Positions 19,595 through 33,949 of a stretch of 64,000 nt of DNA are shown piece after piece. The position numbers and the translations under genes were made by a program. Origin of the DNA: Pseudomonas sp. Seg1 (GTDB taxonomy: Bacteria; Pseudomonadota; Gammaproteobacteria; Pseudomonadales; Pseudomonadaceae); NCBI RefSeq assembly GCF_018326005.1, contig NZ_AP021903.1:4187501-4251500 (forward strand), given 5' to 3'. Under the pieces are notes generated by a model. The model searched no databases, was not told the DNA's origin, and saw only the letters and a list, made by a program, of their open reading frames with translations. How positions within the stretch are numbered: position 1 is the stretch's first letter; each line of letters starts with the position of its first letter.

Positions 19595-20809
19595 ATGAAA
19601 CCTCAATCACTCAGTAGCAGCGTGGTGCTGCTCTTCGCCGTGGCCTGTGGTCTGGCAGTGGGCAATGTGTATTACGCGCAGCCACTGCTGGATGCCATGG
19701 CCGACGCATTCGCTTTGTCGCCGGCAACCATCGGTATCGTTATCACCCTGACACAGGTGGGTTACGGCGTCGGATTGGTGCTGCTGGTGCCACTCGGCGA
19801 TTTGCTCAACCGACGGCGGTTGATCGTCAGCCAGACGCTGCTATCCGCCGTGGCCCTGTTAATGATCGGACTGGCCCCCAACAGCGTCTGGTTGCTGCTG
19901 GGCATGACACTGACCGGTTTACTCGCCGTGGTGACGCAAGTGCTGGTGGCCTATGCCGCGACCCTGGCGATCCCGGCACAACGGGGACGAGTGGTGGGTG
20001 TGGTCACCAGCGGCATCGTCGTCGGCATCCTGCTGGCGCGTACCGTTGCAGGAGGAATGGCTGATCTGGCCGGATGGCGCGCAATCTATTGGCTGTCGGC
20101 GGGCCTGACGTTGTTGATGGCGTTGCTGTTGCTTCGCGTATTGCCCAAGCATGAAGACCCACAACCGGCGTCGACCTATCGCGCATTGATCACCTCGGTA
20201 TTCGTCCTGTTCAAGGAAGAACCGGTTCTGCGCCAACGCGCGCTGCTCGCCCTGCTGACATTCGCCAGCGCCATGGTGCTGTGGACGCCGATGGTCCTGC
20301 CGCTCGCAGCGCCACCGCTCTCGCTGTCGCACAGCGAAATCGGCCTGTTTGGCCTTGCCGGTGCAGCCGGTGCACTGGCTGCGGCGCGCGCCGGGCACCT
20401 GGCTGATCGTGGTCTGGGCCAATGGGTCAGCGGACTGTCGTTGTTGCTGATGCTCGGTTCGTGGCTGCCGATCGCCCTCACCCAGTCTTCGCTATGGGCG
20501 CTGCTGCTCGGCGTGATCACCCTCGATCTGGGCCTGCAAGCCGTTCACGTGACCAGTCAAAGCATGATCTACAGCGTGCGCCCCGAAGCGCAAAGCCGCC
20601 TCACCGCCGGATATATGCTGTTCTACTCGATCGGTAGCGCCCTGGGCTCAATCGGCTCGACCGCCATGTATGCGTGGGCCGGCTGGACCGCCGTGTGCCT
20701 GCTCGGTGCCGCAATCAACACCGTCGCCCTGCTCTACTGGTGGAAAACCCTGGCGCCACAACCTCGTGGCGAGGGAGCTTGCTCCCTGACCACAGAGGCC
20801 CGGCGTTAA
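19595..20809 (+). CDS. MFS transporter (drug/metabolite efflux type)
   Basis: A 404-residue MFS protein with 12 predicted membrane segments. The N-terminal NVYYAQPLLDAMA and the loop GDLLNRRRLIV (MFS motif A) place it with proton-driven exporters of the YgaY/Bcr-like kind. The start at 19595 follows AAGGAT by 6 bases; the TTG at 19571 overlaps the second operator-like repeat. The last 15 or so codons run through a half REP element (20763-20800), so the natural C terminus may have been altered by REP insertion. Confidence 0.87.
   Translation: MKPQSLSSSVVLLFAVACGLAVGNVYYAQPLLDAMADAFALSPATIGIVITLTQVGYGVGLVLLVPLGDLLNRRRLIVSQTLLSAVALLMIGLAPNSVWLLLGMTLTGLLAVVTQVLVAYAATLAIPAQRGRVVGVVTSGIVVGILLARTVAGGMADLAGWRAIYWLSAGLTLLMALLLLRVLPKHEDPQPASTYRALITSVFVLFKEEPVLRQRALLALLTFASAMVLWTPMVLPLAAPPLSLSHSEIGLFGLAGAAGALAAARAGHLADRGLGQWVSGLSLLLMLGSWLPIALTQSSLWALLLGVITLDLGLQAVHVTSQSMIYSVRPEAQSRLTAGYMLFYSIGSALGSIGSTAMYAWAGWTAVCLLGAAINTVALLYWWKTLAPQPRGEGACSLTTEARR
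20763..20800. repeat. Single REP-like element inside the MFS 3' end
   Basis: CGTGGCGAGGGAGCTTGCTC is the left arm of the family also seen at 31.4 and 37.4 kb. Here it is translated as the last residues of the MFS protein. Confidence 0.7.
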
Positions 20810-21351
20810 TCGCGATCACGCCCGCGCAACATGCTGTCGAGCACTTCGTCGCGGCGCACCCAGCCGTGAAACAGCGCCGCCGCCAAGTGCAGCAGCACCG
20901 TCAGGAACAACAGGTAGGCCAGATAACCATGAGCCTTGCGCAGCAGCGCAAACAGCTGCGCATCCGCCGGCACAATCGACGGCAATTGCAGCGAACTGCT
21001 GAGCATGACGGGCTCGCCCGACGCGCTGATCATCGCCCAGCCGAGCAACGGCAGCGCCAGCATCAGCGCGTACAGCAAGACGTGCGAAGCCTTCGCCGCC
21101 AGTACCTGCCAGTCCGGCAGGTCTGCCGGCAGCGGTGGCTGGCGAGTCGAGAAACGCACCAGCAGGCGCACGATCACCAGCGCAAGAATCGCAATCCCCA
21201 ACGGCTTGTGCAGGTGGATCAGCCATTCATGCCGTTCTGACACCGAGGTGACCATTCCGGCCCCGATAAACAGCATCGCAATGATCATCAGCGCCATCAG
21301 CCAGTGCAGCAACCGCGCCAGCAGCGCGAAATGAGTCGGTTGAGTTCTCAT
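20806..21351 (-). CDS. Cytochrome b561
   Basis: A 181-residue, four-helix di-heme membrane protein of the bacterial b561 type. Histidines in LARLLHWLMA, IHLHKPLG and the later helices can bind b haemes. It would move electrons from the quinone pool across the inner membrane. Its start overlaps the catalase stop by ATGA (21348-21351), so the two are translationally coupled and likely form one redox unit. Confidence 0.9.
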   Translation of the reverse strand: MRTQPTHFALLARLLHWLMALMIIAMLFIGAGMVTSVSERHEWLIHLHKPLGIAILALVIVRLLVRFSTRQPPLPADLPDWQVLAAKASHVLLYALMLALPLLGWAMISASGEPVMLSSSLQLPSIVPADAQLFALLRKAHGYLAYLLFLTVLLHLAAALFHGWVRRDEVLDSMLRGRDRD

Positions 21352-22454
21352 TGACGAGCCTCCTGTTTGGCGGCGGGCAACTGGCTGACTTCGCTGGTAC
21401 GGCGCAGATAGGAATCGGCGTAGCCGGCCGAACGCGCGGCTAGCAACGGGTCGTCGGTACCTTGAATCCCGGCTGGCAGCACCAGCGGGTCATAGTTGAT
21501 GTCGCGGCACTCGCCACTGAGTTGCGGCTGGGTCTTTTCCAGCACCAACGTGCCGGCGTTCAACACCTTGCGCCCGGCGGGCCAGGTTTTGCTGGCATCG
21601 TTTACCGGGTCATCGGCGTCCGCCAGGGTGATGTTCAGCTGAAAACGCAGCGGCGCAGCGGCCAAGCGTTGCACCAAGTCTTTTTCCAGAAAATCTGCGC
21701 CCTCAGGTGCACTGGCACCGGCCGCGTCTTGCGCCAACGGCGTCATGCTCCAGCGCACCGCCTGCTTTTTGCCGCTGGCGTCGACCAGGTAGAACGCGTT
21801 GACGCTGTTATAGGTTTCGGTGGCATAACTGGCGGACGGTTTTGCAGTCTTGACCCACGTCAGAAACGGCACGGCTTCCGGGTGAGAGGCGAAGAACGCC
21901 GGAACCTTCGCCGGGTCAGGCTTACCCGTGGCCGGATCCGGCGACTGCGCCTGCTGCAATTGATAGAACGCCTCAGGCGTGCCAACCGGGAACACCGGCA
22001 TGCTGTTCATCCCGGTGCGCCATTGCTGCCCATTGGCCTGGGTAAATCGCAGCGCCAGACTGCGGATCGGCACGCTGCTGTCCGGCGCATAAGGATTGCC
22101 CGCCGGCAACGCAAAACGCCCGACCACCGGAGTGCGTGGCTCGTTGAACACCTGCGCGGTGGAGAACACCCGCGCCTCGCCACTGCTCTCGAAATGCCCG
22201 ATCACGCACACACCTTTGGCGTGATTGCGGCGAAAGCCCGGGTGGACGCCGTTGTTCTTTTCCAGTACATCGACCAGCGCCTTGGGCGTCAGACGCTGTG
22301 GGTCAAAGTTACCGTGAACGTAGGCAAACGCTCCGGCCACCGCAGCGACTACCACAGCAATGCCGCCCAGACGCAGAATCAGGCTCGCCGCACTCAATGG
22401 CGGGCGTTGCGGCCCGCCGGGCCTCTTGATATCGGGTGAGATGCGATCAACCAT
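21348..22454 (-). CDS. Catalase-family (SrpA-like) haem peroxidase, membrane-anchored
   Basis: A 368-residue catalase-fold protein of the small SrpA type. An N-terminal membrane anchor (about 30-50) exports the haem domain to the periplasm. The distal His lies in FRRNHAKG. A proximal RxxxY motif is visible as RSAGY near the C terminus. The start at 22454 has GGAG seven bases upstream; a start at 22472 is less likely. The coupled cytochrome b561 suggests peroxide reduction with electrons from the membrane. An ECF-type promoter lies just upstream. Confidence 0.88.
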   Translation of the reverse strand: MVDRISPDIKRPGGPQRPPLSAASLILRLGGIAVVVAAVAGAFAYVHGNFDPQRLTPKALVDVLEKNNGVHPGFRRNHAKGVCVIGHFESSGEARVFSTAQVFNEPRTPVVGRFALPAGNPYAPDSSVPIRSLALRFTQANGQQWRTGMNSMPVFPVGTPEAFYQLQQAQSPDPATGKPDPAKVPAFFASHPEAVPFLTWVKTAKPSASYATETYNSVNAFYLVDASGKKQAVRWSMTPLAQDAAGASAPEGADFLEKDLVQRLAAAPLRFQLNITLADADDPVNDASKTWPAGRKVLNAGTLVLEKTQPQLSGECRDINYDPLVLPAGIQGTDDPLLAARSAGYADSYLRRTSEVSQLPAAKQEARQ

Positions 22455-22495
22455 GAAAGACTCCAGGGCCAATGGCCATAGGGAAAGGTGCTATG

Positions 22496-22522
22496 AGACG
22501 CACGCCTCGTAGGTTTATTCCC
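22496..22522 (-). promoter_or_regulatory. ECF-sigma promoter of the catalase/cytochrome b561 operon
   Basis: On the minus strand GGAAT (22521-22517), 16 bp, then CGTCT (22500-22496) has the same sequence and spacing as the element before the ECF sigma gene at 26507-26532; the -35 continues as GGAATAA in both. It predicts a start near 22490 and a 5' leader of about 36 nt. Confidence 0.75.
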
Positions 22523-22575: not shown

Positions 22576-23346
22576 TTAAACATGCTCGAATCGGGGTTCA
22601 CGCTTCTCCAGAAACGCCTGCATTCCCTCTTTCTGCCCGGGGGTGGCAAACAAGCCATGAAATACCCGACGCTCAAACAATATGCCTTCGCGCAGTGCTA
22701 ATTCCTGCGCACGATCTACCGCTTCGCGGGCAGCCGCCGTCGCCGCGCCTGAAAATCCGGCAATCCGCTGCGCAACCGCCAGTGCCTGTTCGAGCAATTG
22801 ATCGGTGGCCGTTACACGCGACACCAGTCCCGCCTGTTCGGCCTCCCTGGCGTTGATAGAACGTCCGGTGAGAATCATGTCCATGGCTTTTGCCCGACCT
22901 ATTGCGCGCGTCAACCGTTGAGTTCCGCCCATGCCCGGCATTACACCCAGGGTAATTTCCGGCAACGCAAACTTCGCCGATTCAGCCGCGATGATCACAT
23001 CACACATCATCGCCAACTCACAGCCACCGCCATAGGCAAAACCCGCGACGGCTGCCACCTTCGGCGTCCGGAATCCGGTGAAAGCATCCCAGCCGGCAAA
23101 GTAATCCTCCTGGATCATTTCCACGCAGGATTTCGCATACATTTCCTTGATATCGGCGCCCGCGGCAAAGTACTCCTTCGTACCGGTAATCACGAAACAA
23201 CCCACATCCGGATCAGCATCCAGCCCACGAAGCGTATCCAACAGCTCCTGCATCATCTGCGTACTCAGGGCATTTCGGGCTTGCGGGCGATTCAGCCGGA
23301 TCAGCACAACCCGGCCCAGTCGTTCAATCAGTAGATTCATGTTCAT
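22576..23346 (-). CDS. Enoyl-CoA hydratase/isomerase family protein
   Basis: A 256-residue crotonase. Both catalytic glutamates of true hydratases are present, in GGGCELAMMCD and in ALPEITLGVMPG; the oxyanion loop is FAAGADIKEM. Length is that of FadB1/PaaF-type enzymes. It lies 46 bp after the flavoreductase gene and is probably the last gene of the adenylation operon, so its natural substrate may be unrelated to beta-oxidation. A second ATG two codons in is an alternative start. Confidence 0.88.
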   Translation of the reverse strand: MNMNLLIERLGRVVLIRLNRPQARNALSTQMMQELLDTLRGLDADPDVGCFVITGTKEYFAAGADIKEMYAKSCVEMIQEDYFAGWDAFTGFRTPKVAAVAGFAYGGGCELAMMCDVIIAAESAKFALPEITLGVMPGMGGTQRLTRAIGRAKAMDMILTGRSINAREAEQAGLVSRVTATDQLLEQALAVAQRIAGFSGAATAAAREAVDRAQELALREGILFERRVFHGLFATPGQKEGMQAFLEKREPRFEHV

Positions 23347-23392
23347 CTCATTTCTTGAAAATAGTGCCTGTCAGAAAAACTTCGCAGCCTTG

Positions 23393-24727
23393 TCAGGAAT
23401 CCCAGATAGCGCCGTAGGCCGGTATGCCCCGAGCTTCCATTTCCTCGACCACGCGCTCAGTCAATGTCTGATTGGAGATGCAAATGACCGCTTCAGCGCC
23501 GAACGACTGTACGGCGGTATAAGCCAGGGTCACCAGATCGGGTTTTCCCCGCACGTCCGTGTCCCAGATCAGGGCGTCAGGCTGGGCTTCGAGGATTTCG
23601 TCCACCAGCGGATCGCCGTAGGTGGCTCTCGGACTGCGAGTCGACCAGATCAAGCGTATGGGCACTTGTCTGGCCAACAGATGTGGCAGCACCGGCCCGA
23701 TACCGCTGCCGGTGGCGATATACACCACCGATTTGAACAGCGTTTCAATGTGCGCCACGCCGGCGGTGGTAATGCCCTTGACCCAAACATGCGTTGGCGC
23801 CTGCTCGATAAAAGCACCGGTCCAGTCGCCGGCACGGGAAATAATCAGTCGGAAACCGTCCTGCCCCGGCGCAGGAATATTGGCGAAGGAATGCCATTCC
23901 CACAGCGGATTACGGCTGATGGCCGTCGCGGACCCGGCAAACGGTGTGTGGTGACTGAAGTGGGCAATCACTGCATGTGACGAAGGCCGAACCAGACTGA
24001 CCGGCACTTTTCGCAAATGCAGCCAGGGCAACGCGATGCTGAACGTCACCAGCAGCAACACCCAGAACGAGGCAGACACAGAAAGAACGTCCATCATCGC
24101 CGCCGTCGGATTCTGCTCTCGGGTAGACACCAGCGTCATCGCCCAGAACATCGCGAGCGCAGCCCATCCGGCAAAACGGTGAGTTCGTTCGAATGCATTG
24201 TGGAATCGCCCGCGAATGGCCGGCATGGCCATGATTGCCACCAGCAACATTAACCCTAGCAGCCCGCCATTCAGTCCGATCAAGGTCAGCGAAACACCGC
24301 CCGGCCCCTGAAAGCGCTGCCAGAGCATCGAACCGAACAACAACGCAAACCACGCAATCGCAGCCATCGCCCCACCGCTGTGCAGCCCGCCGAAGTGGAA
24401 GACCTTGGCCAGCGTTCGCCGAATCGCCAGCGGCCAGCTGGTGGGCGCCCGGGTAGCCAGCCAGAACAACAGATTGATGAGGTACTGCTGACGAATCAGT
24501 ATGGCCAACGACAGGTTAGCCACCACCAGCCCGGACAGCGTCTGCAAATCCGCACCGGCGGTCGCCCACCATTGTCCGACCTTGATGCCGTAAACCAGCA
24601 CGGCGATGTTGCAGGCCAGCACCAGCACCACCAGACGATTGTAATGCGAGAACATCGGCAGCGTTCCCAGGCGCCGCCAGAGCACCCGTCGAGCAGGTAA
24701 AACGATGTTCAAATCAGGCCCGCTCAT
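23393..24727 (-). CDS. Membrane flavoreductase (ferric-reductase/TmpA-like)
   Basis: A 444-residue integral membrane protein. About six membrane helices (25-260) carry histidines in VFHFGGLHSGG and FERTHRFAG that could bind haem. A cytoplasmic ferredoxin-reductase-like domain (about 270-444) contains EWHSFANIPAP (FAD region) and ATGSGIGPVL (nucleotide-binding glycine loop). I recall resemblance to fungal TmpA-type flavoproteins that pair with NRPS-like adenylation enzymes. The start at 24727 overlaps the adenylation-gene stop by four bases (ATGA). The electron acceptor is unknown. Confidence 0.75.
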   Translation of the reverse strand: MSGPDLNIVLPARRVLWRRLGTLPMFSHYNRLVVLVLACNIAVLVYGIKVGQWWATAGADLQTLSGLVVANLSLAILIRQQYLINLLFWLATRAPTSWPLAIRRTLAKVFHFGGLHSGGAMAAIAWFALLFGSMLWQRFQGPGGVSLTLIGLNGGLLGLMLLVAIMAMPAIRGRFHNAFERTHRFAGWAALAMFWAMTLVSTREQNPTAAMMDVLSVSASFWVLLLVTFSIALPWLHLRKVPVSLVRPSSHAVIAHFSHHTPFAGSATAISRNPLWEWHSFANIPAPGQDGFRLIISRAGDWTGAFIEQAPTHVWVKGITTAGVAHIETLFKSVVYIATGSGIGPVLPHLLARQVPIRLIWSTRSPRATYGDPLVDEILEAQPDALIWDTDVRGKPDLVTLAYTAVQSFGAEAVICISNQTLTERVVEEMEARGIPAYGAIWDS

Positions 24728-26319
24728 GCCTTCACCTGAGCATCGACGCCCGCATTTGACGCCTGATGCGCCACAGCCCACTCGAGTAGTAATCGCTTGT
24801 CGATTTTGCCCCGGGACGTCAGCGGAATCTCATCCACAGCGAGAATCAGCGAGGGCACACAATAATAGGCAAGCCGTGCTTCACAGCAGACTCGCGCCGC
24901 ATCGACGTCAGTTCTGGCGGGATAGACGAAGGCTACCAGTTGACGATTATCGAGCTTCAGTGTGACCGCGCGTTCACAGTTCGGCGCAGACTCCAGGACC
25001 GCAGACACCGAGTCGAGCTCAACCCGAAAGCCCCTGACCTTTACCTGATCATCGACACGTCCCAGGTGCTCAAGCTCACCGTCTGCCGTCCAGCGCCCCA
25101 GATCGCGGGTCCGGAACATCACGCGCCCCTGGCCCAGAAATGGGTCGGGCCGATAACGCTCACGGGTCAGTTGAGCATTGCCCAGATAACCCGCCGTCAC
25201 GCAATCGCCGCCCGCCCACATCTCGCCCTGCTCACCCGGCTCGCAAAGTTGCCCTGCTTCATCGAGCACATACACCGTGTTGTTGGGCGTCGGCTTGCCA
25301 ATCGTCAGTGCTCCCGAGCCCCGATAGTGCTGCATGGTATTGACGATCGTGGTTTCCGTCGGCCCACACGCATTGTAAAACGTGCAAATCGCTGCCCAGC
25401 GATCCGCCAACGGCTGTGGGCAAGGCTCACCCGCCAAAGCGACCACTTTCACTTGGCCACAACGAGCGGGGTCAAGCGTGGCAAGAATCGACGGAGTCGC
25501 GATTAACACGTCACACTGTTCAGCGGTCTGCGCGATGTCTTTGCCTCGGATCATGAGCGTCGCACCGTGAGCCAGACACCCCAGCACTTCCCAGGCCGCC
25601 ATATCGAACGCGATGTTGAGGATCTGACCGACTTTCAACCCCGGTCGCATGCCGAGATTGCCGGGCTCGGTCAGCAGAATGTTGCAGACGTTGCGCTGAG
25701 TCACACGTACGCCATTGGGCAGTCCGGTGGTGCCCGACGTAAACAATACAAAACACAGTGAGTCAGCTGATGATGTTGCGCCAAAAGTATTCAGTTCGTC
25801 CGCGGCGACACTGGCGACACGGATGAATTCATCCAGGTGGATGCAGTGTTGTGCCGCGGCCAGCGGAATCGCCGGCGCCAGTTCGGATAGCGTCAGGACT
25901 ACCCGCACCTGGGCGACGTCCATGATGTGGCGTAATTGCGCAGCGGGGGTAATACCCACATGCTGCGGAATATAGGCGGCCCCGACTTTCAGCGTGGCCA
26001 GCATGCCCACCAGCATCGGAATCGACCTTTCGACGAACAGTCCCAAATGGTCGCCCGGTAACACGCCTTGTTTGAGCAAAACTGCGGCGAGTCGATTAGC
26101 CTGGCGGTTCAGTTCGCCGTAGGTGATGGAATGGCCCTGATGCCGAGCGGCGACAGCCTGAGGCCGGGCAAGGGCTTGTGCTTCGATTGCGCGATGAATC
26201 AACCTCGCGTCAGGCTCGACTTTTGGGCCGCAGCCAAAGCGCTGCCATGGGTTGGACTGAACTTTCAACCGGGAATCGAAGCCCCGTGTCGACCGGTTAG
26301 TTATCGCGAACGCATTCAT
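24724..26319 (-). CDS. Stand-alone NRPS-type adenylation enzyme
   Basis: A 531-residue adenylation enzyme with the core motifs of NRPS A domains in order: TSGTTGLPNGV (A3, with Asn for the usual Lys), NIAFDMAAWE (A4), NACGPTETT (A5), GDCVTAGYLG (A6), RTRDLGRW (A7), GRVDDQVKVRGFRVEL (A8) and SRGKIDK with the A10 lysine. The Asp and Trp of FDMAAW match the amino-acid-binding Asp235/Trp239 positions of GrsA, so an alpha-amino acid is the likely substrate. No carrier domain follows; the protein ends about 25 residues after A10. It is coupled to the flavoreductase gene by an ATGA overlap. Confidence 0.85.
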   Translation of the reverse strand: MNAFAITNRSTRGFDSRLKVQSNPWQRFGCGPKVEPDARLIHRAIEAQALARPQAVAARHQGHSITYGELNRQANRLAAVLLKQGVLPGDHLGLFVERSIPMLVGMLATLKVGAAYIPQHVGITPAAQLRHIMDVAQVRVVLTLSELAPAIPLAAAQHCIHLDEFIRVASVAADELNTFGATSSADSLCFVLFTSGTTGLPNGVRVTQRNVCNILLTEPGNLGMRPGLKVGQILNIAFDMAAWEVLGCLAHGATLMIRGKDIAQTAEQCDVLIATPSILATLDPARCGQVKVVALAGEPCPQPLADRWAAICTFYNACGPTETTIVNTMQHYRGSGALTIGKPTPNNTVYVLDEAGQLCEPGEQGEMWAGGDCVTAGYLGNAQLTRERYRPDPFLGQGRVMFRTRDLGRWTADGELEHLGRVDDQVKVRGFRVELDSVSAVLESAPNCERAVTLKLDNRQLVAFVYPARTDVDAARVCCEARLAYYCVPSLILAVDEIPLTSRGKIDKRLLLEWAVAHQASNAGVDAQVKA

Positions 26320-26506: not shown

Positions 26507-26532
26507 GGAATAAGCTTCGCTGAGGGGCGTCT
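26507..26532 (+). promoter_or_regulatory. Autoregulatory ECF-type promoter of the sigma/anti-sigma operon
   Basis: GGAAT (26507-26511), 16 bp, CGTCT (26528-26532) duplicates the promoter before the catalase operon. ECF sigma genes commonly transcribe themselves from such a promoter. The predicted start is near 26539, giving a leader of about 50 nt. Confidence 0.72.
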
Positions 26533-26588: not shown

Positions 26589-27095
26589 ATGAACGCACTC
26601 GATGAACAACTGCGTGAGCTGATCCCCAGATTGCGCCGCTTTGCCGTGTCACTGACACGCAACAGCAGCAGCGCCGACGATCTGGTGCAGGCGAGTCTGG
26701 AGCGCGCCCTGTCGGGTTGGGGCGACAAGCGCGCCGACGGCGATTTGCGTGCATGGCTGTTCGCGATCCTGTACCGCCAGTTTCTCGATGCCCATCGTCG
26801 TTCGCGCCGCTATGCGCGGATGCTCGAATTCTTCACCGGTCGCGACGATGCCGAACCTTCGGTGGAGCGCACCGTCATCGCCCAGTCGACCCTGCAAGCC
26901 TTCGACCGACTGCCCACCGAGCAGCGTGCCCTGCTGCTGATGGTCTCGGTCGAAGGCCTTTCCTACAAAGAGGTCGCCGAGATCCTTGGCGCCCCGATCG
27001 GCACCGTGATGTCGCGCCTGTCCCGCGCCCGCCAGGCCTTGCGCCAACTCAGCGACGGCGAAATCAGCAGTCCTTCTTTGCGGATACTCAAATGA
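26589..27095 (+). CDS. ECF-type RNA polymerase sigma factor
   Basis: A 168-residue sigma-70-family protein with region 2 (about 8-75, DDLVQASLERAL and AWLFAILYRQFLDAHR) and region 4 (about 105-158, LSYKEVAEILGAPIGTVMSRLSRAR), and none of regions 1 or 3. It overlaps the anti-sigma gene by ATGA. From its promoter match it probably controls the catalase/b561 operon 4 kb away. No strong Shine-Dalgarno precedes the start at 26589. Confidence 0.93.
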   Translation: MNALDEQLRELIPRLRRFAVSLTRNSSSADDLVQASLERALSGWGDKRADGDLRAWLFAILYRQFLDAHRRSRRYARMLEFFTGRDDAEPSVERTVIAQSTLQAFDRLPTEQRALLLMVSVEGLSYKEVAEILGAPIGTVMSRLSRARQALRQLSDGEISSPSLRILK

Positions 27096-27960: not shown

Positions 27961-28932
27961 TCAGAACCCCACATCCAGCACCACGTTGTCCAGATACGTC
28001 CCTGCCGGCGGTGTGGTCTGGTCGGTGTAGATCTTCGCGTTGTAATTGAAAATCTGGCTGCCAGTCCCGAGTCCATTGCCCGGATTGACCTCGGCATCGG
28101 TACTCGCCCGACGTGCCGCCCCGACACTGCCCCAGCGCGTCGTGCCGGCACTTTTGAAAATGTCATAGGCCAGATAGTTGCTCCCGGAAATCATCCGTCG
28201 TCGCCCACCCGCGCTGACCGGGTTTTGCCCGTCGCTCAGGCCCACGGTGTAGGCGCTGCCCTTGGTGCAGGCCAGGTTGATGGTCTGCCCGGTGACCGGT
28301 GTGAAGGCGCTGACCACCGGTGCGCTGCCGAACGCGATGTTTGGCGCCGTGATCGTGCAGTCGTTGGAGACGGTCAGGTTCACGGTCAACGTGGTAGTGC
28401 CGCTGTTGATGTCGCGCCCAAGGCAAATGGCGCCGATGCCGATACCCGAACAGTAATTCCAGTTCCAGAAGATGCTCAGGGTTTCGGTATACACCCCCGC
28501 TGCGACGTTGCTGCCGATGGTCGTCCCCAGGTAGAGCGGCACGGTTTTCGGCGTCGTACCGCCCAGCAGTCCCAAGGCATCGATGATGCCATTGCGGGCG
28601 AAGTCATACGCCGTGCCGCGAGTCAGCGGGTAACTGGTGCTGTTGTTGGCGTAGACCGTGTAACTGATGACATCGCCAGTGGGCCCGAGCAGTCCGCTCT
28701 GGGTCGACGAAACGGTGCCCCAGAAGTGGTCATTGCTGGTGAGCAGTGACAGCAAAGAGCCGGTGCAACTCAGCCCGCCATTGAGCGTGGAGCTGGGTTG
28801 CGATGTAGTGCGAACGGCAATTGAACTGAGCGTTCCGAAGGCCGCCGGCGTGGTACTGACCACCGAGCAAGCGGCCTGCGCCGCCCCCGGCGACAACAGC
28901 GCCAACCACAACAGCCAGCGTGCGCCGATCAT
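27961..28932 (-). CDS. Spore-coat-U domain pilus tip protein (CsuE-like)
   Basis: A 323-residue exported protein: signal peptide (1 to about 22, GAAQAAC) and two SCPU-like domains. The second (about 185-323) has the family ending (TPPAGTYLDNVVLDVGF). The two-domain size and last position after the usher match tip adhesins of archaic chaperone-usher pili such as CsuE. The start at 28932 overlaps the usher stop by ATGA; longer upstream readings are the usher shadow. Confidence 0.85.
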   Translation of the reverse strand: MIGARWLLWLALLSPGAAQAACSVVSTTPAAFGTLSSIAVRTTSQPSSTLNGGLSCTGSLLSLLTSNDHFWGTVSSTQSGLLGPTGDVISYTVYANNSTSYPLTRGTAYDFARNGIIDALGLLGGTTPKTVPLYLGTTIGSNVAAGVYTETLSIFWNWNYCSGIGIGAICLGRDINSGTTTLTVNLTVSNDCTITAPNIAFGSAPVVSAFTPVTGQTINLACTKGSAYTVGLSDGQNPVSAGGRRRMISGSNYLAYDIFKSAGTTRWGSVGAARRASTDAEVNPGNGLGTGSQIFNYNAKIYTDQTTPPAGTYLDNVVLDVGF

Positions 28933-31286
28933 TGGCACACCAGCGGGCCGATCAGCGGCACCTGATTCTGGTTCATGTCGACATTGAACTGCGCCTTGCA
29001 GGTTTTGCCATCCGCCAGCGTTACTTGTAGCGAGTTTTGCGCTTGCAGGTTTTCCAGATAGACCAGGCCATCCCAACCGACCACGGTGCGTGCGCCGCTC
29101 TCTTCATGCAGCACGCCTGCGCCCAACGGCAGCTCACGTTGCTGCGCATCGACCAGGACGATACTCGCGGCAATGATTTTGCTCAGCGGAAATTCCAGCA
29201 GATAACCGCTACCACGGCGTACCGCGATGCGCTGTTCAACATTGGGGCTGCGCACATTCGGCGGCAGGTTCAGCGGATCGATTTCGTACTTGCCACGGTA
29301 GTAAGCGCTGCTCCACGGCACCAGGAGATGACCGTTTTTATCGGTCTGGCCCACCTGCTGGTTTTCGTAACGCACCGGAATGTCGGCAAAACCATCGGTG
29401 CTGACCACCACAAAGGCATCGTCGATGCGGTTGGCGGCAAACACCTGCCGGTCCATCCACACCAGCGATCCACTGGCATCGGCCCAACGGGTTTCGGCGT
29501 CGGACGTGCCATACACACCGGCCTGCAACTGCACCGATTGCAGGCGCCAGGTCACGTCGGCCTGGCGATAATCGGCGCCATCACCCTTGGCGTACCCCAG
29601 ATTGAAGCCGACCCCGCCCTCGGTCGGCACCGAGCGACTGTAGTTGACGCGCTGCTGGGTTTGCCCGGTCTTGCTGCGCTCGCTGCTGATCGCCAGGCTG
29701 CCACGCAGATCGAACGGGATCACCAGTTGCGCCTGCACAGCCCAGTTGCTGTCGCCGATCTCGCGGTTGGCCGACAGATAAAAACTGCTGTTGCGCCACA
29801 ACGGTTTGCTCCAGCTCAGGTTGAGCAGGCGCGTACGGGAATCGTCGGCGGCACGCACATCGAAATACCCGGCACCGAGGCTGCCCCAGCGATCCAGGTT
29901 GAGGCTCAGCGTGGCCTGTTCGCTGCGGCGGCTGAGGCTGATATAGGGGCTGTCGACCACGGTCAGGTCAGCGTATTGATCGTGGCGTTGCAGGCGCTGG
30001 TAAGAAAAGCTGAAACGCTGATTGCTGTACTGATAACCGAGGCTCAATTGCTCGCCGCCGTCTCCGTCGAAACGGCTCTGACTGATGGCACTGTTGAGCA
30101 CGCCGAAATTGCCCAGGCGCAGGTTACCGCCGAGCCCGCCGAGGGTCAGGTTTTGCGCGGCTTCAGCATGGCTTTCCAGGGTAAAACTGTCGCTGACGCC
30201 GTAACGCAGGCTGCCGGAAGTGACGCCCGGCCCATAGTTGAAATCCTTCAGCGCGTAGTCGCGACGCAAGGTACCGGCCGCCACAGAAAAGTCGCTCAGG
30301 CCCTTTTGCAGCAAACTGCTGGTCACATAAAACGGCACAGTGGTCGACACCTGCCGCCCCAGTGCATCCGTGGTCACCACCACCGCTTCGCCGGCACCGT
30401 TGATGAACGGAATGTTGGTCAGCGTATACGGCCCCGGTTGCAGCTCCGCGCTGCTGGATTTGTAGCCATTGATGAACAGATCCACCGAGGATGGCACCGC
30501 CGCCTCGCCGGCAAACTGTGGCAGCGGATAGGTCACCAGATCCGGGCGCACGGCAAAGTCGCGGGAGAATTGCACGCCCCCCAGGCGCACCGAACTGCTC
30601 CAGGGCAGCGCGCCGCTGATCACGTCGCCCGCCTCGTAGGTGAGCATTCGCTCGTCATCGGAGTAACGCCATGTGGTGTCGTAACGCAGGTAGCCGTTGT
30701 TCATCGTATTGAGCGAATCACCGGACAAGGTGCGCCGGTATTGCCCGGTATTGGACAACGTGCCCCAGCTGTCGAACAGCCGCACCTCGTTCCACGCCGC
30801 CAGATAGGTGCCGGCATCGTCGGTGTCGTTGAGGTACAGGTCATAGTTGAACAGCGCGCCGAAACTGCTCAGTGCCGGCGTGCGCGGGTAGTTCTGACGA
30901 TTGCCGATGAACTGCTCCGGCAACCACTCCGGTGGCACATCCAGCAGCAGGCGCTGGCCGACACTGTCGTAATCGCTGTGCAGCCCCGGCAGGCTGTCGA
31001 GGTCGACTTCGGCGCCAACACCGTCGGGCAGTTTCATGCCGGTTTCGCGTAACGCCGTGCTCGGCAGAAACAGCCGCCCGTCGCGCTGATCCACCGCCAC
31101 CACACGTCCGGTATTCATCTGGTTGACCACCAGTTCGAGAAACAGCTGTGCATCGCTGACGGCCTCCATGCCGCTGGGAGGCGGCGGCAGTTCACCGCCC
31201 CCGGATGGTTGAACGAACACCAGGCAACACGCGCCGGTCATGAGCCACAACGGACGCTGAATACGGCGAGCCCATCCTGGGCTCAT
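28929..31286 (-). CDS. Outer-membrane usher of an archaic chaperone-usher pilus
   Basis: A 785-residue fimbrial usher of the FimD/PapC-like family, CsuD type. A leader is followed by an N-terminal domain (LFLELVVNQMNTGRVV), a long beta-barrel region with a plug (DLFINGYKSSSAELQPGPYTL), and C-terminal domains ending in GPLVCQ. It forms the pore through which chaperone-bound subunits are assembled. It is coupled to the tip gene (four-base overlap) but separated from the chaperone gene by 245 bp holding a REP pair. Confidence 0.92.
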   Translation of the reverse strand: MSPGWARRIQRPLWLMTGACCLVFVQPSGGGELPPPPSGMEAVSDAQLFLELVVNQMNTGRVVAVDQRDGRLFLPSTALRETGMKLPDGVGAEVDLDSLPGLHSDYDSVGQRLLLDVPPEWLPEQFIGNRQNYPRTPALSSFGALFNYDLYLNDTDDAGTYLAAWNEVRLFDSWGTLSNTGQYRRTLSGDSLNTMNNGYLRYDTTWRYSDDERMLTYEAGDVISGALPWSSSVRLGGVQFSRDFAVRPDLVTYPLPQFAGEAAVPSSVDLFINGYKSSSAELQPGPYTLTNIPFINGAGEAVVVTTDALGRQVSTTVPFYVTSSLLQKGLSDFSVAAGTLRRDYALKDFNYGPGVTSGSLRYGVSDSFTLESHAEAAQNLTLGGLGGNLRLGNFGVLNSAISQSRFDGDGGEQLSLGYQYSNQRFSFSYQRLQRHDQYADLTVVDSPYISLSRRSEQATLSLNLDRWGSLGAGYFDVRAADDSRTRLLNLSWSKPLWRNSSFYLSANREIGDSNWAVQAQLVIPFDLRGSLAISSERSKTGQTQQRVNYSRSVPTEGGVGFNLGYAKGDGADYRQADVTWRLQSVQLQAGVYGTSDAETRWADASGSLVWMDRQVFAANRIDDAFVVVSTDGFADIPVRYENQQVGQTDKNGHLLVPWSSAYYRGKYEIDPLNLPPNVRSPNVEQRIAVRRGSGYLLEFPLSKIIAASIVLVDAQQRELPLGAGVLHEESGARTVVGWDGLVYLENLQAQNSLQVTLADGKTCKAQFNVDMNQNQVPLIGPLVCQ

Positions 31287-31369
31287 ACGCGCTTTACGTC
31301 CGTCAATGGACTGATTCCTCCTGATACTTCCCTAGCCAGACTCATATCTCAGTGACACTACCCAACCCA

Positions 31370-31504
31370 TGTGGCGAGGGAGCTTGCTCCCGCTCGGCGG
31401 CGCAGCCGTCGTAAAACCAGTCACCCAAATTTAATTGAGACACTGCAGTCATCTGTTTTGGGGCTGCTTCGCAGCCCAGCGGGAGCAAGCTCCCTCACCA
31501 CAAA
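31370..31504. repeat. REP pair inside the pilus operon
   Basis: Inverted copies of GTGGCGAGGGAGCTTGCTCC lie between the chaperone and usher genes, about 80 bp apart. REP hairpins at this place could lower or stabilise usher expression relative to the subunits. Confidence 0.82.
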
Positions 31505-31531
31505 AAGCACAGCTAAAAAATCTTCGTCCGG

Positions 31532-32320
31532 CTACCGTGCCGGGCTGATGCTCTGCACCTGCGGCGCCCCATTGACCCGTACCTGCAACGCCGAATCAGC
31601 CGCCGCAGCACCTGGCGCCGGCCAGCGCATCACCGCGCCCGGCAACACGTAACCGAGCAGTCCCTCGGCCAATGGCTTGCTCTGCCCGCCCTGCTTGATC
31701 GCCACGTCGGTCAATCGCGCATGCACCGCGCCCTGATTGCGCACCTCTACATATGGCCGCCCCTCCACGGCCACCGTGCGCCAGCTCAATTGCGGCAGGC
31801 CGATGCCTTTGGGATCTCGCGGGCGAGTGCTGTCCTCCTTGCTCCACAGCCCCGCGCCGTAGGCAAACAGCGGCACCGAATAGCGCATCTGGAAGCGGAT
31901 GGCAGCGGCGGTCTTGCCGCCGTCAGCGGAGGCCGGTTGTGCGGACGGGATTTCGTCGATGATGATTCGATAAGCCAGTTCCTGCCCCGGCGGCACGTCT
32001 TTGGTGCGGGTCAGGCGCACCAGTTGTTTTTGCCCCGGCTCGATCTTTGCCACCGGCGGACTGCCGATCACGTCGCGTTGATTCTGGTATTGCTCCTCGA
32101 ACCCGCTCTGGGTCCAACTGAACACGCGAATCTGCAGATTGGCGGTTTCGTTGCCGCGGTTCTCCAGCCATAACGCACTGGCCTGCTGATCGGCCTCCAG
32201 CACCGGGTCAATCGGCCAGATCAATACCGAACTGGCCGCTAGCGCGTTGCCGGTCCCAAGCATGACCAGCGCCAACATCGCGCACTGAACCAACGAAAGC
32301 CGTGATGTAACTGACCCCAT
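31532..32320 (-). CDS. Periplasmic pilus chaperone (CsuC-like)
   Basis: A 262-residue PapD-like chaperone. A signal peptide (1 to about 33, ending NALAAS) and two immunoglobulin-like domains are visible, with KQLVRLTRTK and AYRIIIDEIP in the first domain. It donates a strand to SCPU subunits in the periplasm. The start at 32320 has AAGGAG eight bases before it; longer readings are out of context with the upstream subunit gene. Confidence 0.9.
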   Translation of the reverse strand: MGSVTSRLSLVQCAMLALVMLGTGNALAASSVLIWPIDPVLEADQQASALWLENRGNETANLQIRVFSWTQSGFEEQYQNQRDVIGSPPVAKIEPGQKQLVRLTRTKDVPPGQELAYRIIIDEIPSAQPASADGGKTAAAIRFQMRYSVPLFAYGAGLWSKEDSTRPRDPKGIGLPQLSWRTVAVEGRPYVEVRNQGAVHARLTDVAIKQGGQSKPLAEGLLGYVLPGAVMRWPAPGAAAADSALQVRVNGAPQVQSISPAR

Positions 32321-32354
32321 AGACCTGCTCCTTGTCGGCAATCCAGCCTTCGCC

Positions 32355-32855
32355 TCACCACGACAGTTGCACCTGCAACACGTCGCTGTACGTCCCCCCA
32401 GGCTGATTGCCCGGCAATTGCACCTGACCGTAAATCGGCAGGCTGATGTTGTTCGCATCGCTATAGGCCACCGCCACGCTCTGGCCGATGCCCAGGCTCT
32501 GGCTGTACGCCGCATCGCGAAACAGCGTATACGCCACCCGCGCGCTGCCACTGTTGATCTGCATGTGCCGGCCGCTGCTGTTGTACTGACCGCCATCGAC
32601 GCTCATGTTCAGTGTCACCCCCGGTGTGCATTGCAATTGCACACCGCCGGTCAGCGCGACCTGCACCGTGCCGGTGGCCAGGGCCGAACGTGAACCGAAA
32701 TTCAGCCCGCCATAGTTCGACACCCCACCGACCACCAGACACCCCGCCGTGACCGTGGCGCTGACCTGAAAGCTCTGACTGGTCGCAGCGGTCAGCGGCA
32801 GCGGCGCACTGCCCGCACAAAGCAGGAGCAGCGCGATGCAGCCTTGACGGCGCAT
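32355..32855 (-). CDS. Spore-coat-U domain pilus subunit
   Basis: A 166-residue exported SCPU protein: signal peptide (1 to about 23, LTAATS) then one domain with an early Cys (VTAGCLV), a mid Cys (LQCTPGV) and the ending GGTYSDVLQVQLSW typical of the family. It starts four bases after the stop of the frameshifted subunit gene. It is probably a minor subunit such as CsuB. Confidence 0.88.
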   Translation of the reverse strand: MRRQGCIALLLLCAGSAPLPLTAATSQSFQVSATVTAGCLVVGGVSNYGGLNFGSRSALATGTVQVALTGGVQLQCTPGVTLNMSVDGGQYNSSGRHMQINSGSARVAYTLFRDAAYSQSLGIGQSVAVAYSDANNISLPIYGQVQLPGNQPGGTYSDVLQVQLSW

Positions 32856-32859
32856 GGCA

Positions 32860-33395
32860 TCAGAACGTCAGTTCAACAGCGACAGTGTCGGTGTAGGTCC
32901 CTGCCGGCAAACCGGCCTTGCCCACCGCTTGACCGTAGATATTCACCGTTTGCGCCACGCCGGTGCTGGCGGCCAGATTGATCGTGCCGTCAATCGCCAA
33001 CAGCTGCGAATGCCCGGCGTCGGTGTACAAGTCGTACGGCACATAATTGGCGACGCCGTCGTACAGCGCGCGCGTCCCCCCGGTGACATGCCGTCATGGG
33101 AGCCCGCCCGGACCTTGACCGTCGGTGTGGTGCCACTGGAGCAGAGAATCGACAACGCCCCGCCACCACCGCCCAGCACTTGCCCGGTGGCCGTGGTGAA
33201 CAGGCTGTTGGCGGTGCCGAAGTTCAACGCACCGAAGTTCAGACCGGTGGAGCCTCCGGCGCCGTTGACCTGACAGCTGCTGGTCAGGATCAGGCTCGAG
33301 GTGATCTGGCCGGTGACAGTGGTGGCGGCATGGGCACTGGAAACCAGTGCCAGACCAAGCAACGACAAACCTATCCTTGATGCATACATACGCAT
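32860..33395 (-). pseudogene. Frameshifted spore-coat-U pilus subunit
   Basis: Two overlapping frames together make one SCPU protein. The first (from 33395) gives a signal peptide and the N-terminal half (LNFGALNFGT, LCSSGTTPTVKV). The second (ending 32860) gives the C-terminal half (VPYDLYTDAGHSQ, LPAGTYTDTVAVELTF). The frame changes near a run of six C on the plus strand (33076-33081); one extra base would restore a 178-residue protein, the size of its paralogues. It may be a true mutation, a slippery phase-variable tract, or a sequencing error. Confidence 0.85.
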
Positions 33396-33415
33396 GGTTT
33401 CCGTCCTCTACGGGG

Positions 33416-33949
33416 TTACCAGTCGAGCGTCACCGTCAGGGTGTCGGTATAGACACCTGCCGGGACCGCGCGGGTATTCGCCACCACCGAGCCAAATACC
33501 GGGATCGGTATCTGCGCACCGCTGGTGACAGCGAAATTGTGTTGTTGACCGATGCTGTAGCTCTGACTGCCGGAGGCATCGAGAAACAACTGATAGGGAA
33601 TGGTCTGGCGGCCGTTGCTCAGGCGCCGGGTGTTGCCGTCACCATGGGCGCCACCGTCGATGCTGACGGTGAAACCGGTGACCGAAGGGTTGCAGGCGAC
33701 ATTCAGTCTGCCACTGCTGTCACCATCGAGGCTGGCCTTGATCGGTGCGTTCCAGGTCGGGCCCTGAAGTCCGAAGTCAAGCTTGCCCAGATCGCTGACC
33801 GGGCTGGCGGGGTCGCTGGTGTTGGTCACTTCGCAGCCGGCAATGAGGATCAGCCGCGCATGAATCTGCCCGCTCACCGCCGCTTGTGCGTCGTCAGCGA
33901 GTAACGCGAGCGTACCTGCCGCCACGACCATCCAGTACTTGCCTGTCAT
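33416..33949 (-). CDS. Spore-coat-U domain pilus subunit
   Basis: A 177-residue SCPU protein with a signal peptide (1 to about 23, DDAQAAV), paired cysteines (AGCEV and VACNP), and the ending PAGVYTDTLTVTLDW. It could be the major structural subunit. The next gene follows 20 bp downstream. Confidence 0.88.
   Translation of the reverse strand: MTGKYWMVVAAGTLALLADDAQAAVSGQIHARLILIAGCEVTNTSDPASPVSDLGKLDFGLQGPTWNAPIKASLDGDSSGRLNVACNPSVTGFTVSIDGGAHGDGNTRRLSNGRQTIPYQLFLDASGSQSYSIGQQHNFAVTSGAQIPIPVFGSVVANTRAVPAGVYTDTLTVTLDW

Follow-up and report, generated by a model that had tools for sequence, protein, structure and literature searches.

The closest described relatives of the locus reported here are fungal proteins of the TmpL/TmpB/NPS12 family and a bacterial adenylation protein, Sare0718 of Salinispora arenicola. 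The locus is a three-gene cassette in a 64,000-nucleotide stretch of Pseudomonas sp. Seg1 DNA (contig NZ_AP021903.1, positions 4187501-4251500), referred to below as the window; it encodes a stand-alone adenylation protein of the nonribosomal peptide synthetase (NRPS) type (A), a membrane oxidoreductase (TM) and an enoyl-CoA hydratase or crotonase (ECH). Our analysis indicates that the cassette is probably a split bacterial relative of TmpL/TmpB (NPS12), whose proteins act on an alanine-type substrate in a joint pathway.

TmpL has been described as specific to filamentous fungi, with its biochemical function left open, and flavin binding by its purified domain has been reported (PMC2766074). 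In the Aspergilli, an enoyl-CoA hydratase/isomerase gene adjoins tmpB (PMC4804170). Stand-alone bacterial A domains nested within the ChNPS12 clade were reported earlier (PMC2823734). Like the window A protein they are single and NPS12-related; the available text of that account mentions no membrane partner or enoyl-CoA hydratase gene, and the likeness is one of description only. For Sare0718, Xia and colleagues printed the pocket code DMWIAAAIVK and found that L-Ala alone of the 20 amino acids gave clear activity, adding that L-Ala need not be the substrate in vivo (PMC3360062). Its nearest genes were those of a hypothetical protein, an enoyl-CoA hydratase/isomerase and a phosphopantetheinyl transferase (PPTase); in the available text the hypothetical neighbour is left uncharacterised and TmpL is not mentioned (PMC3360062).

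The A, TM and ECH genes of the window are co-directional on the minus strand. The A gene (24724..26319) encodes a protein of 531 aa that matched PF00501 (E 4e-65) and scored 323.5 bits on TIGR01733, above the cut-off of 317.4, and both the pocket Asp and the A10 Lys were found by alignment on PheA numbering, which we take as the ruler for the pocket code. The stop of the A gene overlaps the start of the TM gene in an ATGA (24724..24727), and this arrangement suggests translational coupling of the two genes. Taking the ATG of this overlap as its start, we set the TM gene at 23393..24727 (444 aa); a longer GTG form (23393-24781) is offered by the open reading frame listing, and the nearest public entries are of 444 aa. 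Judged from its sequence and a structure model with long helices and a flavoreductase domain, TM is a membrane oxidoreductase of the FAD/NAD(P)H type with six transmembrane helices and an NADPH oxidase (NOX) fold. In Pfam and NCBIfam scans at 0.001 the TM protein was unmatched; PF26733, a precomputed protein-database label on its relatives, was not among the profiles scanned. The ECH gene (22576..23346, 256 aa) starts 46 bp past the TM stop, and its product has an ECH_1 domain (PF00378, E 1.4e-76) with GGGCE and PE, presumably the catalytic Glu motifs of crotonases. An earlier note made from the letters alone had described a stand-alone A domain with an amino-acid-binding Asp, an ATGA overlap, a membrane flavoreductase partner and an enoyl-CoA hydratase downstream, and all four descriptions held.

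The relationship to the fungal proteins was evident from fused homologues. A search restricted to longer proteins gave 654 TM homologues; among the 120 that were listed, many were about 1000 aa long with both PF00501 and PF26733, and the names of some of these natural bacterial A-TM fusions point to Fulvivirgaceae, Aquimarina and Pantoea. With a higher length limit the search gave 47 proteins; 44 of them (P0241-P0284) were fungal by name, several being called 'nonribosomal peptide synthetase 12'. The fungal A parts, present in 42 of the 44, were 39-49% identical to the window A protein, and the fungal TM parts were 38-46% identical to the window TM protein, apart from a partial match that reached 52%. 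All fungal rows of the TM tree fell into a single clade (100/100), split and fused bacterial rows interleaved, and the starred branches demanded at least two changes between split and fused forms. The A tree agreed with the TM tree and separated the family (100/100) from eight NRPS A domains, namely seven of the own genome and PheA.

The cassette shares with TmpL/TmpB/NPS12 an A domain, six transmembrane helices and an FAD/NAD(P)-type domain, both halves being sequence homologues, together with the lack of a carrier, a near-identical pocket code and an enoyl-CoA hydratase/isomerase gene that is also found near tmpB. It differs in that the crotonase gene here follows TM immediately, and in that A and TM lie on two genes here and in one polypeptide in fungi, for which reason we regard it as a split variant rather than a plain member of TmpL/NPS12. 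A model of a natural A-TM fusion had a pLDDT of 87 and a pTM of only 0.56, and we therefore claim no A-TM interface. Some fungal homologues extend further into an alpha/beta hydrolase or short-chain dehydrogenase/reductase (SDR) domain; P0267 and P0277 illustrate this, with either an alpha/beta hydrolase or DUF3237 plus SDR. These extensions are possible hints to the product.

The substrate of the A protein was considered next to Sare0718. The pocket code of the window A protein, read before it was compared with the printed code of Sare0718, was the identical DMWIAAAIVK, and Sare0718 likewise has an enoyl-CoA hydratase/isomerase gene near, along with a hypothetical gene; the PPTase gene adjacent to Sare0718 has no counterpart in the window cassette (PMC3360062). 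The pattern DMW-AA[A/S/C/G]I[V/I]K, with position 278 in a gap, was read in 42 of the 45 rows from cassettes and 79 of the 87 from bacterial fusions, and DMW[I/V]AA[S/C]IVK in 36 of 42 fungal rows. By analogy with Sare0718, L-alanine is most likely the substrate of the window A protein. Two Cys residues of the window A protein were also conserved in the family. At PheA position 323, Cys was present in 43/45 cassette rows (one gap, one Tyr), 87/87 fused rows and 40/42 fungal rows (one gap, one Tyr), and Tyr in 7/7 of the own-genome NRPS domains compared. At position 305, Cys was present in 44/45 cassette rows (one gap), all 87 fused rows and 32/42 fungal rows, and in none of the seven own-genome domains. 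Both positions presumably lie near the nucleotide pocket, and these Cys residues could conceivably act as a redox switch or accept an acyl group.

The conservation of the cassette was then assessed. TM matches were present in 28 of 298 Pseudomonas genomes (24 strong, 4 marginal) and in 6 of 398 genomes of a phylum sample, where besides the own genome three matches were strong and two marginal; the 23 loci from a genome-contig scan were divided among Pseudomonas (12), Micromonospora (10) and Allorhizocola (one). The comparison set comprised 45 strong chromosomal loci besides the own one (19 + 26). Four locus pairs in it have identical ECHs and are perhaps one strain twice. The marginal TM matches (the 4 in Pseudomonas, and L032 and L033 in the phylum sample) were left out of the counts, plasmid relatives were counted separately, and three strong Pseudomonas matches (G191, G140, G065) lay outside the locus comparison. 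The A gene adjoined the TM gene in all 45 loci, and the junction was ATGA or GTGA in 35 (33 scored at -4 by script; in L044 and L055, where the script took an in-frame start at +2, ATGA is visible in the junction sequence); the remaining junctions were six overlaps of 8, one of 1, one gap of 24 and two unreadable. Since this junction is kept in 35 of 45 loci, Micromonosporaceae among them, the A-TM overlap is more than chance. Damaged copies were seen at L027, L017 and L034, the defects being an A match broken in two, an in-frame TGA within TM and a truncated ECH.

Taking these results together, we propose the following course for the joint pathway. The A protein would form L-alanyl-AMP, as the homologue with the identical pocket code suggests, and, being carrierless, would pass it to its membrane partner TM. 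From its fold and motifs, TM would take electrons from NAD(P)H at the cytosolic face via FAD and probably one inner-side heme, and these electrons would most likely reduce the activated alanine or its product, for example to alaninal. The crotonase may process or supply a CoA-linked partner, and the pathway would yield a small metabolite derived from alanine and probably diffusible. The step in which alanyl-AMP itself is reduced directly is a tentative suggestion, which we hold to be somewhat doubtful. Bolder and less likely is the idea of a carrier-free amino-acid reductase common to bacteria and fungi, in which a NOX-fold flavoprotein with at most one heme would convert L-alanyl-AMP directly to alaninal and so feed a diffusible signal, for instance if alaninal condensed with itself to a pyrazine. 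Carboxylic acid reductases and alpha-aminoadipate reductase have an A-T-R architecture. The common idea would be to adenylate first and then reduce, whereas no T or R domain is present here and the reductase would be a membrane flavoprotein.

If electrons do go to an aminoacyl adenylate, the A domain would be employed in an uncommon way. The split bacterial genes also offer separate, tractable proteins for TmpL-type function, and the code in common with Sare0718 points to L-alanine as the substrate to try first, in the fungal family too. In the literature searched, which covered few subscription papers, no report of a bacterial A-plus-TM pair of TmpL type was found. What is new here is the two-gene bacterial set with a membrane partner and a crotonase, and the link to Sare0718. 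The fungal parallel drawn in the earlier note proved stronger than it had been put there, given fused fungal homologues whose pocket codes match closely; fused A-TM homologues, which it suggested looking for, exist in both bacteria and fungi, and its proposal of amino-acid activation gained support by analogy from the L-Ala activity of Sare0718, which has the identical code (PMC3360062). The chemistry it put forward, in which the membrane partner reduces or transfers the adenylate, is a plausible candidate.

Several observations weigh against a split TmpL relative with an alanine substrate. Code position 322 is A in the window and S or C in the fungal proteins. The link to Sare0718 was built on its printed code and gene neighbours and not on its full sequence, and codes are poor predictors, the substrate predicted for Sare0718 having been Val (PMC3360062). 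Six of the 41 bacterial TM sequences have no H183, a presumed heme ligand. TM also occurs with other partners: the three plasmid loci examined, of five hits with TM relatives (one of Pantoea with about 50% identity, two of Calothrix with about 29%), had no A match, and in one group of TM fusions a cyclic nucleotide (cNMP)-binding domain replaces the A domain. ECH, the third gene, was present in 40 of the 45 loci, was absent or truncated in L025, L027, L029, L034 and L054, and was likewise absent or truncated in L076.

The crotonase itself gave further reasons for caution. Micromonospora cassette ECHs were about 60-67% identical to the window ECH, for which the own paralogue reached 56%; the ECHs of L030 and L031 (57% and 51%) were comparable to that paralogue, and non-cassette plasmid ECHs reached 64-65%, for which reason ECH identity alone marks no cassette type. 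A first, larger ECH tree was blurred by long paralogues. In the smaller tree used instead, a single clade of all cassette ECHs was rejected (p-AU 0.027); with L030 and L031 set aside, 21 cassette ECHs grouped weakly (75/67). ECH thus does not appear clearly cassette-specific, and cassettes may have acquired similar ECHs on several occasions. The Glu motifs were kept in all cassette ECHs printed. No ECH was confirmed in the viral contigs. A working link of ECH to the other two proteins is unproven; it is argued from this possible repeated uptake and from the enoyl-CoA hydratase/isomerase gene beside tmpB (PMC4804170).

Some further relatives of TM deserve mention. The cNMP-binding domain is N-terminal in P0200, P0205, P0210, P0217 and others, and a profile search against PDB sequences gave matches captured by cNMP-binding domains. 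On the Calothrix plasmids (L058 7959-10710, L059 6475-9078), the distant TM relative is followed by an HlyD-type protein.

An explanation that has to be taken seriously, unlikely as we think it, is that the A protein loads a remote carrier in trans, and that the membrane reductase and the crotonase modify the tethered alanine. The A protein has no thiolation or condensation domain and so is not a complete NRPS module. In whole-genome family searches, the own genome had 25 PF00550, 25 PF00668 and one PF01648 matches, with zero for each family inside the window (G000:C1:4187501-4251500), and the closest PF00550 match lay about 300 kb beyond the window end. The earlier claim that carrier, condensation and PPTase genes are lacking was thus right for the window; as to the PPTase it does not extend to every relative, since such a gene lies beside Sare0718 (PMC3360062), a neighbour that also favours loading in trans. 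Moreover, PF00550 matches were found in 9/9 other cassette genomes searched (four each in G395 and G430), none of these genomes being free of a carrier match, which fits loading in trans. However, among the matches listed for these nine genomes no PF00550 adjoined a cassette. A and TM have also been fused repeatedly, yet neither PF00550 nor PF00668 was labelled in the 120 listed of 654 longer TM homologues or in the 47 longest.

It is also conceivable, though in our judgement improbable to about the same degree, that the A protein is an aminoacyl-CoA ligase that transfers alanine from alanyl-AMP to CoA, and that the crotonase and the flavoprotein then act on the CoA ester. The crotonase as the usual third gene, with both catalytic Glu motifs kept, would fit such a role, and two of the three annotated plasmid relatives (six were fetched) adjoin mmsB of valine catabolism. 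On the other hand, the best fold matches of the TM model were NOX and FNR-type reductases, in a comparison without acyl-CoA dehydrogenases, ECH is missing from some loci that retain A and TM, and the assays described for Sare0718 in the available text do not involve CoA (PMC3360062).

We give little credence to a third explanation, in which TM is an NADPH oxidase making superoxide or peroxide, within an oxidative-stress operon that includes an ECF (extracytoplasmic function) sigma factor and catalase. The NOX fold of the TM model, the catalase, cytochrome b561 and ECF sigma genes that adjoin the cassette, and the oxidative-stress hypersensitivity of fungal tmpL mutants (PMC2766074) speak in its favour; A. 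nidulans tmpB mutants, however, showed no H2O2 sensitivity (PMC4804170). The hemes do not agree with it either. With heme His positions assigned by spacing and not by residue-level superposition, the outer-heme His (130 and 196) was found in 0 of 41 bacterial TM sequences, four having His at 197, and the presumed inner-heme pair was H116 in 40/41 and H183 in 35/41. TM therefore lacks the four-His, two-heme arrangement of NOX, and its motifs HSFAN and GIGPV fall outside the NOX filter of PMC5676040. Compared with SpNOX and human NOX2, the window TM is without the expected outer-heme His, has other FAD and NADPH motifs, and is accompanied by an A protein. A superoxide-making NOX was rejected as a candidate, the fold agreeing and the hemes and motifs disagreeing.

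The position of the cassette also bears on this explanation. The ECF sigma gene (26589..27095, plus strand), the catalase-domain gene (21348..22472, minus strand) and the cytochrome b561 gene (20806..21351, minus strand) belong to the host locus outside the cassette. Against an expectation of 0.01, the window has two occurrences of the ECF-type pattern GGAATAA-N12..17-CGTCT, one upstream of the catalase-domain gene (22496..22521, minus strand) and one upstream of the sigma gene (26507..26532, plus strand), each at an insertion border; the two sites are 3985 bp apart with the cassette between them, and before the A gene there was no exact match to the one pattern tested. Among the 18 regions examined, of 83 genomes with a catalase match, 2 held the module, and in the other 16 the sigma and catalase genes were adjacent and divergent. 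In 15 of these 16 module-free loci two opposite-facing sites stood 28 bp apart, and the remaining locus had a single exact match. Outside Pseudomonas, in flanks of 1.5-8 kb, there was no catalase match except in L054 (26% identity, 4.8 kb away). Since the cassette sits between the divergent ECF-type sites of the sigma/catalase locus, the catalase neighbourhood in Pseudomonas is, from its sequence, best read as a landing site, and the link to oxidative stress is therefore lowered, not removed. An oxidative-stress operon with catalase as the leading explanation was set aside on the module-free loci and the geometry of the sites.

The last explanation, a decayed NRPS remnant that neighbours an unrelated reductase by chance, is hardly credible, for although the presence is patchy (the 24 strong matches in 298 Pseudomonas genomes) and damaged copies exist, the code and motifs are conserved from bacteria to fungi, fusions occur and the overlap is conserved.

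A few minor observations complete the description of the window. The paired divergent ECF-type sites of the sigma-catalase-cytochrome b561 locus were kept in Pseudomonas both with and without the cassette. A promoter and terminator scan gave matches no more frequent than in shuffled sequences. At 28929-33949 on the minus strand, the proteins resemble a chaperone-usher fimbrial cluster, as judged by eye from the translations.

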